Shown here: positions 3,582 through 52,372 of the stretch, piece by piece | How positions within the stretch are numbered: the first letter of the stretch is position 1 | Layout: the number at the start of each line of letters is the position of its first letter | From: Halalkalicoccus paucihalophilus | Lineage (GTDB): Archaea > Halobacteriota > Halobacteria > Halobacteriales > Halalkalicoccaceae | Length of the DNA stretch: 64,000 nt | Assembly: GCF_001593955.1 (NCBI RefSeq) | Contig: NZ_LTAZ01000013.1 | Coordinates: 1 to 64,000 of the forward strand | Direction: 5' to 3' | Made by a program: the position numbers and the translations under genes | Notes under the pieces: generated by a model | Database searches by the model: none | Told to the model about the DNA's origin: nothing | Seen by the model: only the letters and a program-made list of their open reading frames with translations

Positions 3582-4734
3582 GTGCAACCCCTCGCCTACG
3601 ATTCTGTGCGCGAAGACACCGACCTCGGTAGTCAGCACGCGATTCTCGCCACCCACCAAGCCGCACAAGCCATCACCGGCTGTATCGAACGCCGGTCGAA
3701 GGGCAAGAAGGTCAGCAAGCCAACGTTCACCGCGCCGACCGTGAAGTACGATACGCGGACGATGACGGTGTTCGATGACGACACCGTGTCCCTCTCCACA
3801 ACAGAGAGCCGGGTCCGGTGTCCGCTCGACCTTCCCGACGCCGACGATGGCTATCAGCGACAGTACCTCGACTCGGACGAATGGAGCGTCACGGAAAGTA
3901 CGCTCACCGTCCGAGACGGCGAGTTCTTCTTGCATATCGGCTTCCGCCGGCACAAGAACGACACCGAACGGAACACCGCCGAGGACGGAACGGTCCTCGG
4001 GGTTGACCTCGGTATCGAAAACCTCGCCGTCACCAGTACCGCCTACTTCTTCAGCGGGCGGGAGCTAATCCACGACCTCCGCGAGTTCGAGAAGGTACGC
4101 GCCGGGTTGCAACAGACCGGAACACGAAGCGCTCACCGGACGCTCGAACAGTCGAGTGGTCGGGAACTTCGCTACGTCCGCGACGTGCTTCACCGAGCGT
4201 CGAACGCGCTGATAGACGAAGCACTCCGATACGACTGTGACGTAATCGCGTTCGAGAACCTAACCCACATCCGCGACCGAACCGGTGCGTCGTGGGGTCA
4301 CAAGTGGGTGTTCCGAACACTCTACGAATACGTCGAGTACAAAGCCGAATCGGTCGGTATCTCGGTGAAGCAAGTCGGGTCGGCGTATACGTCGAAGCGG
4401 TGTTCCGAGTGTGGATTCACGGCAGACGAGAATCGTCCGTCGCGCAACGACTTCCGGTGCGTGAAGTGCGGATCGGAAGCGAACGCGGACTACAACGCGG
4501 TCGTCGGATGATATCCGACGGGCAGCAACGTCGTATTGCGACGTTGCGACGGCGAAGAACATCGGTATGCGGTATGTCCGTTGAGGCCAACAGTCGTCTC
4601 GGCGGACGGGCGACAGTCAGCTCGCCCTCAAGTCTGGAACGCTGAAGCCGAAGGGCGGATTTACCGCCTACCCCAATGGATTCGAGGCCGAGTTCACGGA
4701 CAATCCCCACCCTCAACACGCCGAAGGCGTGTAG
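3582..4734 (+). pseudogene. tnpB: Degenerate IS200/IS605-type tnpB, copy 1
   Basis: This is an RNA-guided TnpB nuclease gene that has lost its 5' end. Homology starts abruptly at a residue equivalent to about 60-70, with a GTG as first usable codon. What remains shows RuvC-I (VLGVDLGIENLAVTS), RuvC-II (VIAFENLTHIRD), the zinc ribbon (CSECGF then CVKCGS) and RuvC-III (ANADYNA). Right after RuvC-III a 52-nt insertion (4500-4551) shifts the frame and brings a stop. Beyond it the original frame resumes (AKNIGMRYVR), then meets a TGA where the family normally has arginine, and runs into the right-end hairpin. So there are three lesions: 5' truncation, insertion and nonsense. Confidence 0.9.
4500..4551 (+). 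repeat. Two-hairpin insertion in tnpB copy 1 (type A, 52 nt)
   Basis: It interrupts tnpB between the two alanine codons of the Asn-Ala-Ala-Lys motif that follows the third RuvC aspartate. The element reads GT, then stem CGTCGGAT / ATCCGACG around a GAT loop, then GGCA, then stem GCAACGTCG / CGACGTTGC around a TATTG loop, then GACG. Both stems are perfect (8 and 9 bp). It is identical base for base to 6880-6931 on the other strand. The same design with different stem sequence occurs at 17001-17054. Confidence 0.95.
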
Positions 4735-6660: not shown

Positions 6661-6714
6661 TAAACTACCCTACCCTCAACGAGCGAGGTCGTCAGACCGA
6701 GCGAAGTAGGGTAG
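6661..6714 (-). repeat. Right-end hairpin of TnpB element copy 2
   Basis: The stem is CTACCCTACCCT paired with AGGGTAGGG; the inner segment between the arms reads AACGAGCGAGG ... CGAGCGAAG on the plus strand. The inner segment is inverted relative to the otherwise near-identical right end at 51041-51094. Confidence 0.85.
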
Positions 6715-6879
6715 GGCTTTCGCGTGGACTCCCGTTCTATGCCACCGTCCGTAGTAGCAGGGGGGGACGTACTCCCCACTCACGTTCAGCGTCCCGCGAT
6801 TCAAGCGCACGTCTACAGGTGCGCCTCCGTCGGCTGCATTTTGCCGCCGTCGGAGATACCGAAAGCCGATATTCTTCGC

Positions 6880-6931: not shown

Positions 6932-8005
6932 CGCGTTGTAATCCGCGTGGTTCTGATACCCGCACTTTAAGCACTCGAAGTGCTCGCCGTCGCGGTTATC
7001 CTCATGAGTACAGCCACACGTCGAACAGCGTTGGGACGTGTGGTTCGGCGGGACTTGTACGGCTTCGACGCCGTGTTCAGCCGCCTTGTACTCGACGTAG
7101 TGGAACAGCCGCCGGAACGCCCAGACATGTTGCCACGTCGCCTGTGGGATGTTCTCGCGGATGTGCGTTAGGTCCTCGAAGACGATATGCGAACACCCGT
7201 GCTCGACGGCTTCTTCGAGCAGTTCGTTCGCTGCGCCGTGCAAGTAGATTTCGAAGCGTCCGTACTCCTTGCGAGCGACGTCTTCGATGGATTCGTGTGC
7301 GGCTCGCGTTCCGTGCTGTTGGAGCGAACCACGGCGCTTCTCGTACTCCCGACGCCAGTGGTTGAACTCATCAGCGGACCAAAATGTGCCGGTTGACGTA
7401 ACAGCTATATTGTTCACTCCGAGGTCCACACCGAGGACTGTTCTGTGCTCAGTGTCGGGTTCGGGATCGTCGGCTTCGACCTTCCGCATTGAGGCATGAA
7501 GGAACCACTCACCGTCCCGACGCTGTAGGGTCGCCATGCGGAATTCGTAGTCCTCATCTTCGAGGTACGTCCGTGGATGGCGGTCGGGGTTGTCGGGAAG
7601 GATATAGTCACACTCGACCCGTCCGTTGACGGTCGAAAGCGAGACGTGGTCGCGGTGGAACGTCGCACTGCGTTTGTCGTAGACCGCGCTATCGGCAGAG
7701 AAGTAGGGTTGTGACGTACGTTCACCGCGCTTCAGTCGTGCCACACCGCTCTTGATAGCTTCGACCGCGCGGCGGACTCCTTTCTGAACGAGATTCGCGG
7801 TAAGGTCGGTTTCGTCCCGCAGTTGATCGTACAAGGCACGCTCGGCTTTGGCCTTCGAGGTAACGTGGTATCCGTCGTCACCATGCCAACACCATTCGCT
7901 CGTGGTGTTCGCACAGTGTTTGAATTGCTCGACAGTCTCGCGGAGGGACGCATCGGCGTCTTGAGGCACGTCGAGCTTGATGACGGCGGTACGACGGTAT
8001 TCCAC
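6920..8005 (-). CDS. tnpB: TnpB RNA-guided nuclease, C-terminally truncated by the 52-nt insertion
   Basis: A 361-residue TnpB with a complete N-terminus (MEYRRTAVIKLDV). RuvC-I is [15 protein letters not shown], RuvC-II is [12 protein letters not shown], the zinc ribbon is CSTCGC and CLKCG, and RuvC-III is NHADYNA. All three catalytic acids are present. The frame stops four codons later inside the two-hairpin insertion, about 45-50 residues short of the normal end. The original C-terminal frame continues beyond the insertion (AKNIGFRYLRRRQ) towards EYVPP, where a run of seven C shifts it again. TnpB cuts DNA under guidance of an RNA from the element's right end. Activity without the C-terminal tail is uncertain; if the insertion is removed from the RNA most of the tail would be restored. 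Confidence 0.9.
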   Translation of the reverse strand: MEYRRTAVIKLDVPQDADASLRETVEQFKHCANTTSEWCWHGDDGYHVTSKAKAERALYDQLRDETDLTANLVQKGVRRAVEAIKSGVARLKRGERTSQPYFSADSAVYDKRSATFHRDHVSLSTVNGRVECDYILPDNPDRHPRTYLEDEDYEFRMATLQRRDGEWFLHASMRKVEADDPEPDTEHRTVLGVDLGVNNIAVTSTGTFWSADEFNHWRREYEKRRGSLQQHGTRAAHESIEDVARKEYGRFEIYLHGAANELLEEAVEHGCSHIVFEDLTHIRENIPQATWQHVWAFRRLFHYVEYKAAEHGVEAVQVPPNHTSQRCSTCGCTHEDNRDGEHFECLKCGYQNHADYNAVVG

Positions 8006-16671: not shown

Positions 16672-17216
16672 GAGAAGAAACACGCGGATAACTCGCGGGC
16701 GAGAGGCCGGCAGTTCGACTTGCCGGTTATCGCCCTCAAAGACTTGTCGCACATCGTGAACATCGCGACTACGGAAAGTGGATGAACCGACGCCTTCACG
16801 AATGGGCTTTTGCGCGCCTCACGAGCCGGACCGAGGACAAGACGCTTGATGCCGGTATCCCGGTTCGGTTCGCCAACCTGACATATACGTCCCAGACGTG
16901 CCACGAGTGCGGACACATCGGACGGCGTGGGTCGCAGGCGGCGTTCCGATGCACGAACCCAGAGTGTTGGGTTACGGAGTACCAAGCGGACATCAACGCA
17001 GTCGCCGGAACCCCGTTCCGGCGGGCAGCCAGAAGCCGTCGGCTTCTGGCAACGGCGGCGAACATCGCTGGCCGCATAGACTCGTGGGGGAAGAGCGTTC
17101 CTTGGAAACCGGAACGCGATGACTCGCCTCAGGATGGGAGCACCTTTGGCAGTGCCACAGCCCGCCCCGAGCTGAGTGCGAAACCCGCACAGACGACGCT
17201 CGGGGAATGGGGCTGA
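16672..17216 (+). pseudogene. tnpB: Degenerate IS1341-type tnpB, copy 4 (C-terminal third)
   Basis: Only the C-terminal part survives. RuvC-II (PVIALKDLSHI) lies in one frame, then a one-base shift near 16765 moves to the frame MNRRLHEWAFARLTSRTEDK. The zinc ribbon CHECGH and RuvC-III (YQADINA) follow. A 54-nt two-hairpin insertion (17001-17054) keeps the frame, adding 18 residues before the motif AANIAGRIDSWG resumes. The gene runs to a normal-looking C-terminus and on into the right end. It belongs to a different tnpB subfamily from copies 1-3. It cannot be active because the N-terminal two thirds, including RuvC-I, are missing. Confidence 0.88.
17001..17054 (+). repeat. Two-hairpin insertion in tnpB copy 4 (type B, 54 nt)
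   Basis: It has the same place in the gene and the same plan as the 52-nt elements. It begins GT, then stem CGCCGGAAC / GTTCCGGCG around a CCC loop, then GGCA, then stem GCCAGAAGCC / GGCTTCTGGC around a GTC loop, then AACG. The stem sequences differ at many positions from type A, yet every base pair is kept (9 and 10 bp). At 54 nt it adds 18 sense codons and does not break the frame. Confidence 0.92.
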
Positions 17217-51116: not shown

Positions 51117-52215
51117 CTATGCCGTAGAGGCAGGGGGAACGTACTCCCCACTCACGTTCAGCGTCCCGTGATTTAGCGCAACGTCTACGGGTGCGCCTCC
51201 GGCGGCTGCGTTTTGCCTCCGACGGAGATACCGATAACCGATGTTCTTCGCCGCGTTGTAGTCCGCGTGGTTCTGATACCCGCACTTTAAGCACTCGAAG
51301 TGCTCGCCGTCGCGGTTATCCTCATGAGTACAGCCACACGTCGAACAGCGTTGGGACGTGTGGTTCGGCGGGACTTGTACGGCTTCGACGCTGTGCTCTG
51401 CCGCCTTGTACTCGGCATATTGGAACAACCGGCGGAATGCCCACACGTGTTGCCATGTCACCTGCGGGATGTTATTGCGGATGTGCGTTAGGTCCTCGAA
51501 GACGATGTAGGAACAACCGTACTCTACGGCTTCCTCGATGAGTTCGTTCGCTACGCCATGCAAGTAGATTTCGAAGCGTCCGTACTCCTTGCATCCGACG
51601 CCTTCGATGGCTTCGTGTGCGGCTCGCGTTCCGGTTTGTTGAAGCGAGCCACGGAGCTTCTCGTACTCTCGACGCCAGTGGTTGAACTCATCGGCGGACC
51701 AAAACGTGCCGGTTGACGAAACGACGATATTGTTCACTCCGAGATCCACACCGAGGACTGTTCTGTGCTCGGTGTCGGGTTCGGGGGTAGCGCCCAGAGT
51801 CGTCGGGAAGGATGTAGTTGCACTCGACGCGCCCGTTGACAGTCGAAAGGGAGACGTGGTCGCGGTGGAACGTCGCGCTTCGTTTGTCGTAGACCGCGCT
51901 ATCGGCGGAGAAGTAGGGTTACGACGTTCGTTCGCCACGCTTCAGCCGGGCTACACCGCTCTTGACGGCTTCGACCGCCCGACGAACACCTTTCTGAACG
52001 AGGTTCGCGGTGAGGTCGGTTTCGTCTCGTAGTTGGTCGTACAAGGCGCGTTCAGCTTTGGCCTTCGAGGTAACGTGGTATCCGTCGTCGCCGTGCCAAC
52101 ACCATTTGCTCGCGGTGTTCGCGCAATATTTGAATTGCTCGACAGTCTCTCGGAGGGATGCATCGGCGTCCTGAGACACGTCGAGCTTGATTACGGCGGT
52201 TCGACGGTATTCCAC
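51117..52215 (-). pseudogene. tnpB: Degenerate tnpB, copy 3 (empty site of the two-hairpin insertion)
   Basis: It is close to copy 2 over most of its length, but dead. After the intact N-terminus (MEYRRTAVIKLDVSQDADAS) a TAA replaces a glutamine codon after ERTS, and about 110 bp are deleted between the TTLGATPE and DTEHRT parts, which shifts the frame. The RuvC motifs, the zinc ribbon and the full C-terminus ([18 protein letters not shown] to EYVPPASTA) are otherwise present. At the position where copies 1, 2 and 4 have an insertion, the two alanine codons are adjacent (junction 51251/51252), so this is the uninterrupted reference. Confidence 0.92.
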
Positions 52216-52303
52216 GATGTTTCACATAACTCGGTGGTGTTACTTAAACATCCGGGAGTAGGACTGCCGGGGAACGTTGTTCGTTGCGGAATTGTCGGCT
52301 CCT

Positions 52304-52348
52304 CCCCTCCCTACTCCGTCCACTTCGCTCACTCCGTTGAGGAAGGGA
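52304..52348 (-). repeat. Left-end hairpin of TnpB element copy 3
   Basis: CCCCTCCCT pairs imperfectly with AGGAAGGGA; it corresponds to 8094-8138. Confidence 0.65.
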
Positions 52349-52372
52349 CCTCCGCCTCGCAATTTAGGTGAA

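Follow-up and report, generated by a model that had tools for sequence, protein, structure and literature searches.

Palindromic repeats that reside inside genes have been known until now mainly from Rickettsia and some other bacteria. Two of the Rickettsia palindromic elements (RPEs), RPE-4 and RPE-6, are included among the CGTC-tagged repetitive extragenic palindromes (REPs), which have no dedicated transposase, are described from bacteria only, and are built of 8-9 bp stems starting with A-T pairs, loops of 4-5 nt and CCA tails (Di Nocera 2013, PMC3733652). REPINs carry GTAG tags instead and are moved by an associated RAYT (REP-associated tyrosine transposase) gene (PMC3116915, PMC8266576). 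In the haloarchaeon Haloquadratum, two further kinds of small element have been described, namely SMR-A, of about 110 bp with inverted terminal repeats, and the terminal-only palindrome-associated transposable elements (PATEs), which are related to IS605 ends (PMC3119063). Here I analyse a 64,000-nt stretch of the Halalkalicoccus paucihalophilus genome (contig NZ_LTAZ01000013.1, positions 1 to 64,000; hereafter the window), in which three tnpB genes each carry an insert of 52 or 54 nt that folds as two hairpins. With a probability of roughly 0.82, this insert is a non-autonomous mobile two-hairpin DNA repeat of haloarchaea that is not lost from RNA or protein. It is best read as a selfish element akin to REP doublets and RPEs, and seems to play in archaea the part that in-gene palindromes play in Rickettsia.

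The copies in the window, their hosts and an unoccupied paralogue are as follows.

4500..4551, + strand: element copy 1, 52 nt, reading GTC, stem 1, GGGCA, stem 2, GACG; covariance-model score 74.9 bits
6880..6931, - strand: element copy 2, 52 nt, identical to copy 1, within a tnpB on the - strand
17001..17054, + strand: element copy 3, 54 nt, sequence of both stems different, in frame and open; 60.1 bits
3582..4499, + strand: host tnpB 1, portion preceding the insert; N-terminus missing; Pfam PF07282 and PF01385
4552..4581, + strand: host tnpB 1, tail past the insert, AKNIGMRYVR and then an in-frame TGA; pseudogene
6932..8005, - strand: host tnpB 2, portion preceding the insert, a 361-aa open frame ending at a TGA inside the insert; Pfam match
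6679..6879, - strand: host tnpB 2, tail past the insert, about 67 open codons in a shifted frame
16782..17000, + strand: host tnpB 3, 3' fragment preceding the insert, with TNB zinc ribbon and DINA; Pfam match
51124..52372, - strand: empty-site tnpB paralogue lacking the 52-nt insert, junction ACAACGCG^GCGAAGAAC

All three inserts split an Asn-Ala-Ala (N-A-A) block between its two Ala codons (AACGCG^GCG), past the RuvC-III Asp, in the protein contexts DYNA^AKNIG and DINA^AANIA, and the genes that they occupy encode TnpB (Pfam PF07282, PF01385). Long aligned blocks on either side of the insert show 87-91% identity between host 2 and the empty tnpB at 51124-52372, and empty tnpB copies in related genomes show that the net insert is exactly 52 nt and that the target is left intact. 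Sequence, Pfam and empty sites together confirm the original prediction, made from the letters of the window, that three such elements lie at these coordinates and at the same tnpB junction. Its description of three interrupted tnpB genes is right as to the family but not as to their condition, as only the host of copy 2 can be read as far as the insert, whose own TGA then stops it. The host of copy 1 has lost its N-terminus and meets a TGA 10 codons past the insert, and that of copy 3 is a 3' fragment.

The unit consists of two perfect tandem hairpins in the order (C)GTC-hairpin 1-GGGCA-hairpin 2-GACG, with a canonical length of 51 nt and a range of about 45 to 57. Stem feet are G-C or C-G in most copies, loops are mostly of 3 nt, the spacer is GGGCA, and the unit end is GACG (CGTC on the opposite strand) in 157 of 188 units. 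Within the window, copy 3 remains fully paired although both of its stems differ from those of copies 1 and 2, from which it had been proposed that structure is kept while sequence changes. This held on a larger scale: among 104 distinct aligned copies, 98.5% of cells are paired, 15 of the 17 base pairs show a change on both sides, and none of 500 shuffled controls reached the observed pairing. A 14-sequence seed alignment gives the same covariation picture. A helix kept as RNA would normally contain many more G-U pairs than are present here, where they account for 14 of about 1,540 paired cells (~1%) and where both sides of the pair have changed in 283 cells. The scarcity of G-U pairs, together with the existence of inverted copies and of copies outside genes, argues for selection or copying at the DNA level, and so points to a DNA palindrome rather than a helix selected as RNA.

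At a threshold of E of 0.001 or better, a flank-free covariance model matched 338 of the 394 haloarchaeal genomes sampled (Haloquadratum included), some of the matches being weaker ones to more remote elements built on this plan. The expectation that further covarying copies would be found in other genomes is therefore fully borne out. The source genome holds nine strong copies, all at the N-A^A junction of a tnpB, and six of the nine are identical, with 0 differences in 52 nt. The hosts of these six share 49-94% identity over the 150 nt preceding the insert, with mismatches only a few bases away from it. Identical elements in such diverged hosts indicate a recent spread of the element, not of the gene. 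Viral contigs searched with the stem 1 pattern gave no match, and a match to the pattern in Streptomyces (L103, 33 bits) looks like chance.

Is the tnpB junction the only place where the element settles? It is a hot spot rather than an exclusive site. The identical insertion site noted in the window recurs at 87 of 163 distinct loci (83 in tnpB, four in a ychF-like gene), whereas the other 76 lie elsewhere, which makes it one hot spot among several. These 76 include IS605-type end palindromes (27 loci), other tnpB sites, tandem arrays, positions near tRNA genes, cell genes, and copies inverted at the N-A-A site. The ychF-like GTPase gene spells Asn-Ala-Ala with the same DNA as tnpB, AACGC.GCG, and this shared target suggests that the hot spot is defined by DNA sequence rather than by TnpB function. 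Across sites, the unit, if read as TC...ACG, mostly has a CG before it and closes with an ACG of its own.

Several arrangements at and near these sites deserve mention in their own right. Tandem arrays of units placed end to end (..GACG/TCRCC..) occur at G000:C5:376875-376922 (L156), L199, L216, L239 and L273, and suggest that units insert beside each other. At L117:3935-3986(+) the element has an N-A-A site of tnpB on each side, the two facing opposite ways, which might reflect recombination between two tnpBs at the element. More two-hairpin elements were found at two other fixed tnpB sites, ST^P (CAACG^CCTGTGG) and AKR^VVE (AAGCGCG^TCGTGG), with examples at L052:1384-1441(-), L052:1289-1334(-) and L125:6207-6264(-); the tnpB tail of L052 carries three two-hairpin elements within about 260 nt. 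A second family with the same plan and another sequence, GTTCGAGA..TCTCG-TGATGA-CGAGA..TCTCGAAC, lies near tnpB tails at L054, L058 and L096 (e.g. L096:1130 and L096:2466, + strand).

In the verified cell genes the insert is in frame, free of stops and codes for 15-17 residues. The homoserine acetyltransferase MetX and a zinc alcohol dehydrogenase each have exactly 17 additional residues when set against solved homologues, PurH and a haloalkane dehalogenase homologue contain in-frame, open inserts, and PurC has an in-frame insert at the same place in two genera. The PurC copy is the sole copy in both of its genomes, as is the PurH copy in its genome. Further in-frame hosts are a NUDIX protein, a biotin ligase (BirA), a rhodanese-lactamase protein, FtsY, an intein-bearing gene, a pyridine nucleotide-disulphide oxidoreductase, an aminotransferase and an NAD-binding oxidoreductase. 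The copies in cell genes occupy varied reading frames. Hydrophilic, linker-like sequences such as VVERSSTGSQNSSSSGD and VDESRRDSSASQTQSDD are predicted for the insert peptides; the predicted peptide carrying the insert in PurH is, for example, LHLPGSQTQSGDVGELGDR, and that of PurC contains SSTGSQNSSSSGDVVEDGEVK. From these reading frames, I infer that the in-frame copies are translated.

Most of these cases came from a search for frames that run through the insert. A complementary search, for genes that are open only once the element is removed, yielded clear cell-gene cases that are redundant or decaying copies, the rest being tnpB genes at further sites. Where a second trpB is interrupted, the genome concerned always contains a further trpB with a long open frame, and one of the interrupted copies also has a frameshifted start. 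Another case from this search is an aldo/keto reductase, presumably redundant or decaying. The ychF-like paralogue is hit at N-A^A in four instances (L207, L231, L262 and L270), of which one is intact but for a TGA, one is frameshifted and two are truncated to 5' fragments. Beside these stand three observations on arrangement: the redundant trpB is hit at the same place in two haloarchaeal families (L250, L314), by an insert of in-frame length with a TGA; at L250 a second, open element lies upstream within the same trpB; and at L262 the ychF-like fragment, which has two elements, directly precedes an intact copy.

What becomes of an occupied tnpB bears on whether the insert could be removed or bypassed during expression. 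I scored the upstream frame as intact if it had at least 300 open codons before the insert, and considered only those occupied tnpBs with enough upstream sequence. By this measure 25 of 73 occupied tnpBs are intact compared with 28 of 32 empty ones, a control that was partly chosen by a profile favouring intact genes; among empty tnpBs chosen by DNA similarity alone, nine of 11 are intact. Among the occupied genes, frame makes no difference (12/31 intact with in-frame inserts, 13/41 with frameshifting ones). Splicing and bypass both predict equal health of occupied and empty genes, and the decay of the former thus disfavours either. As a gauge of selection on the tail past the insert, differences by codon position in one pair (L147/L148) number 4, 4 and 30 upstream compared with 4, 5 and 4 downstream; their meaning depends on the age of the insertion, and I draw no conclusion from them.

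Besides the choice of control, several observations weigh against the repeat as I interpret it. About a third of the tnpB hosts with a frameshifting insert retain an open frame as far as that insert, and the otherwise intact ychF-like gene of L207 carries an in-frame TGA. The through-frame search favours in-frame cases over others. A Y1 transposase domain (Y1_Tnp) is present in 11 of 20 genomes without model matches compared with 21 of 31 element-rich genomes, and one element-rich genome has neither a Y1 nor a TnpB match. Finally, some copies could stem from gene conversion into the hot spot, with transposition being deduced from the distribution of copies.

The original prediction listed a mini-intron, a translational bypass element and a selfish palindrome of the Rickettsia type as candidate interpretations; the last fits, and the first two find no support. 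A mini-intron that removes itself from tnpB mRNA, or is cut out by an enzyme such as the archaeal tRNA splicing endonuclease, would account for the exact empty site, the conserved structure and a tnpB frame that is usually still readable past the insert. However, the canonical bulge-helix-bulge shows no clear excess over shuffled sequence at the junctions (a 4-bp central helix occurs in the best placement of 3/87), an Rfam search with the element returned nothing relevant, and occupied genes decay. Nor would excision explain why inserts in sole-copy enzymes keep the reading frame and contain no stop, why G-U pairs are nearly absent, or why inverted copies and copies in non-coding DNA exist, and I regard it as highly improbable. 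Programmed bypass, like that of the T4 gene 60 gap or the byps of Magnusiomyces mitochondria, is suggested by the size of about 50 nt, the hairpins, a length that is often not a multiple of three, and the GCG codons that flank both sides in 70 of the 87 N-A^A copies. The empty gene already has this GCG/GCG match, however, occupied tnpBs decay with or without a frameshift, cell genes contain in-frame open copies in varied reading frames, and there are non-coding, inverted and tandem copies, so that bypass has just as slight a chance of being correct as excision.

Two other explanations concern what the element is and how it spreads. It may lack mobility of its own, serving as a structural component of the guide RNA region of tnpB and travelling between tnpBs by recombination. 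The element is strongly biased to the 3' part of tnpB, where the guide RNA of other TnpBs has its start, and uses several sites there. Numerous copies are found in unrelated cell genes and in intergenic arrays, though, tnpBs that differ from each other only a few bases away from the insert share identical elements, and many tnpBs lack the element, all of which makes this very unlikely. A terminal-only PATE, in which the ends of an IS605-type transposon are fused and TnpA still moves them, comes closer. The 52-bp terminal-only PATEs of Haloquadratum look mobile (PMC3119063), the present element occurs in Haloquadratum genomes too, and its hairpins near both ends, lack of target duplication and insertion beside a short CG target are as expected of a PATE. 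Against this, it has two different hairpins, whereas the described 52-bp forms keep one direct-repeat copy (a comparison made by description), it shows no Y1 association, and it is abundant in the genome without TnpB or Y1 match; such an origin is therefore unlikely, if less so than the others.

Which enzyme, then, moves the repeat? Hairpins at both ends, a target that is not duplicated, and a short CG both in the flank and closing the unit resemble single-strand transposition by HUH enzymes. The presence of a Y1 transposase does not track element abundance by genome, as it would for a repeat mobilised by IS200/IS605 elements, in a comparison that covered Y1_Tnp as the one enzyme family. Despite the HUH-like anatomy, I treat a Y1/RAYT-like HUH enzyme as a tentative candidate, somewhat less likely than not.

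If the insert is a mobile DNA repeat, as I favour, it would move as single-stranded hairpin DNA, cut beside CG by an HUH-type or other trans-acting enzyme. Its insertions lie beside CG in GC-rich, often palindromic targets, with no target duplication, and AACGCG^GCG is the best hot spot. It would spread and be maintained as DNA, consistent with perfect Watson-Crick palindromes, both orientations, tandem arrays and identical copies in diverged hosts, and it would neither be removed from RNA nor skipped by ribosomes. Where length and frame permit, the copy would be translated as a hydrophilic insert of 15-17 residues, like Rickettsia RPEs; where it brings a frameshift or a stop, the host gene would die, a loss that would be tolerated in selfish tnpB genes and redundant paralogues.

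With its presence in most sampled haloarchaeal genomes, exact empty sites and a sharp hot spot, and with PurC and PurH among the single-copy enzymes that hold it in frame, the family offers a well-populated natural experiment on selfish DNA adding segments to proteins. It also carries a warning for annotation, namely that one repeat lies behind many of the tnpB frameshifts in haloarchaea and many of the short disordered inserts in enzymes. What enzyme mobilises it is a concrete question that can be approached in culturable archaea. The broader proposition, that archaea own protein-coding palindromic elements with non-Y1 machinery and CG-centred targets that donate segments of 15-17 residues to essential enzymes, I would put at even odds.

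In the literature other than subscription papers, I found no description of this family, or of a mini-intron, bypass element or coding palindromes in haloarchaea. Among described systems, SMR-A and PATEs are its nearest haloarchaeal relatives in behaviour and the CGTC-tagged REPs its nearest relatives in plan. Like the latter, whose tag stands at one end and may also read TGTC or CCTC, it has short perfect hairpins with an unpaired CGTC tag, occurs mostly as doublets and is both intergenic and intragenic; it differs from them in the GC-rich feet of its stems, in loops that are mostly of 3 nt, in the spacer GGGCA and in having a tag at each outer end, and its units do not follow their consensus of A-T at positions 1 and 2, a loop of 4-5 nt and CCA. 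Set beside RPEs by description only, it is likewise a mobile palindrome lying in frame within ordinary protein genes, but belongs to another domain of life, has two hairpins in 45-57 nt, and has a strong tnpB hot spot at which half of the insertions are frameshifting. SMR-A is a transposase-free repeat that targets IS605-type elements and their end palindromes with no target duplication, and the present element does likewise insert into IS605 end palindromes; its 45-57 nt, two hairpins and residence in cell genes as well set it apart, by description, from the ~110 bp of SMR-A with inverted terminal repeats. PATEs share hairpins near both ends, the lack of target duplication and possibly mobile 52-bp forms, but compared by description the present element has no demonstrated relation to IS605 ends. 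REPINs are similarly non-autonomous palindrome doublets copied within genomes, whereas the haloarchaeal unit has CGTC-type ends and no Y1 association. The haloarchaeal family works like these systems but is filed as a separate family and not as a member of any of them.
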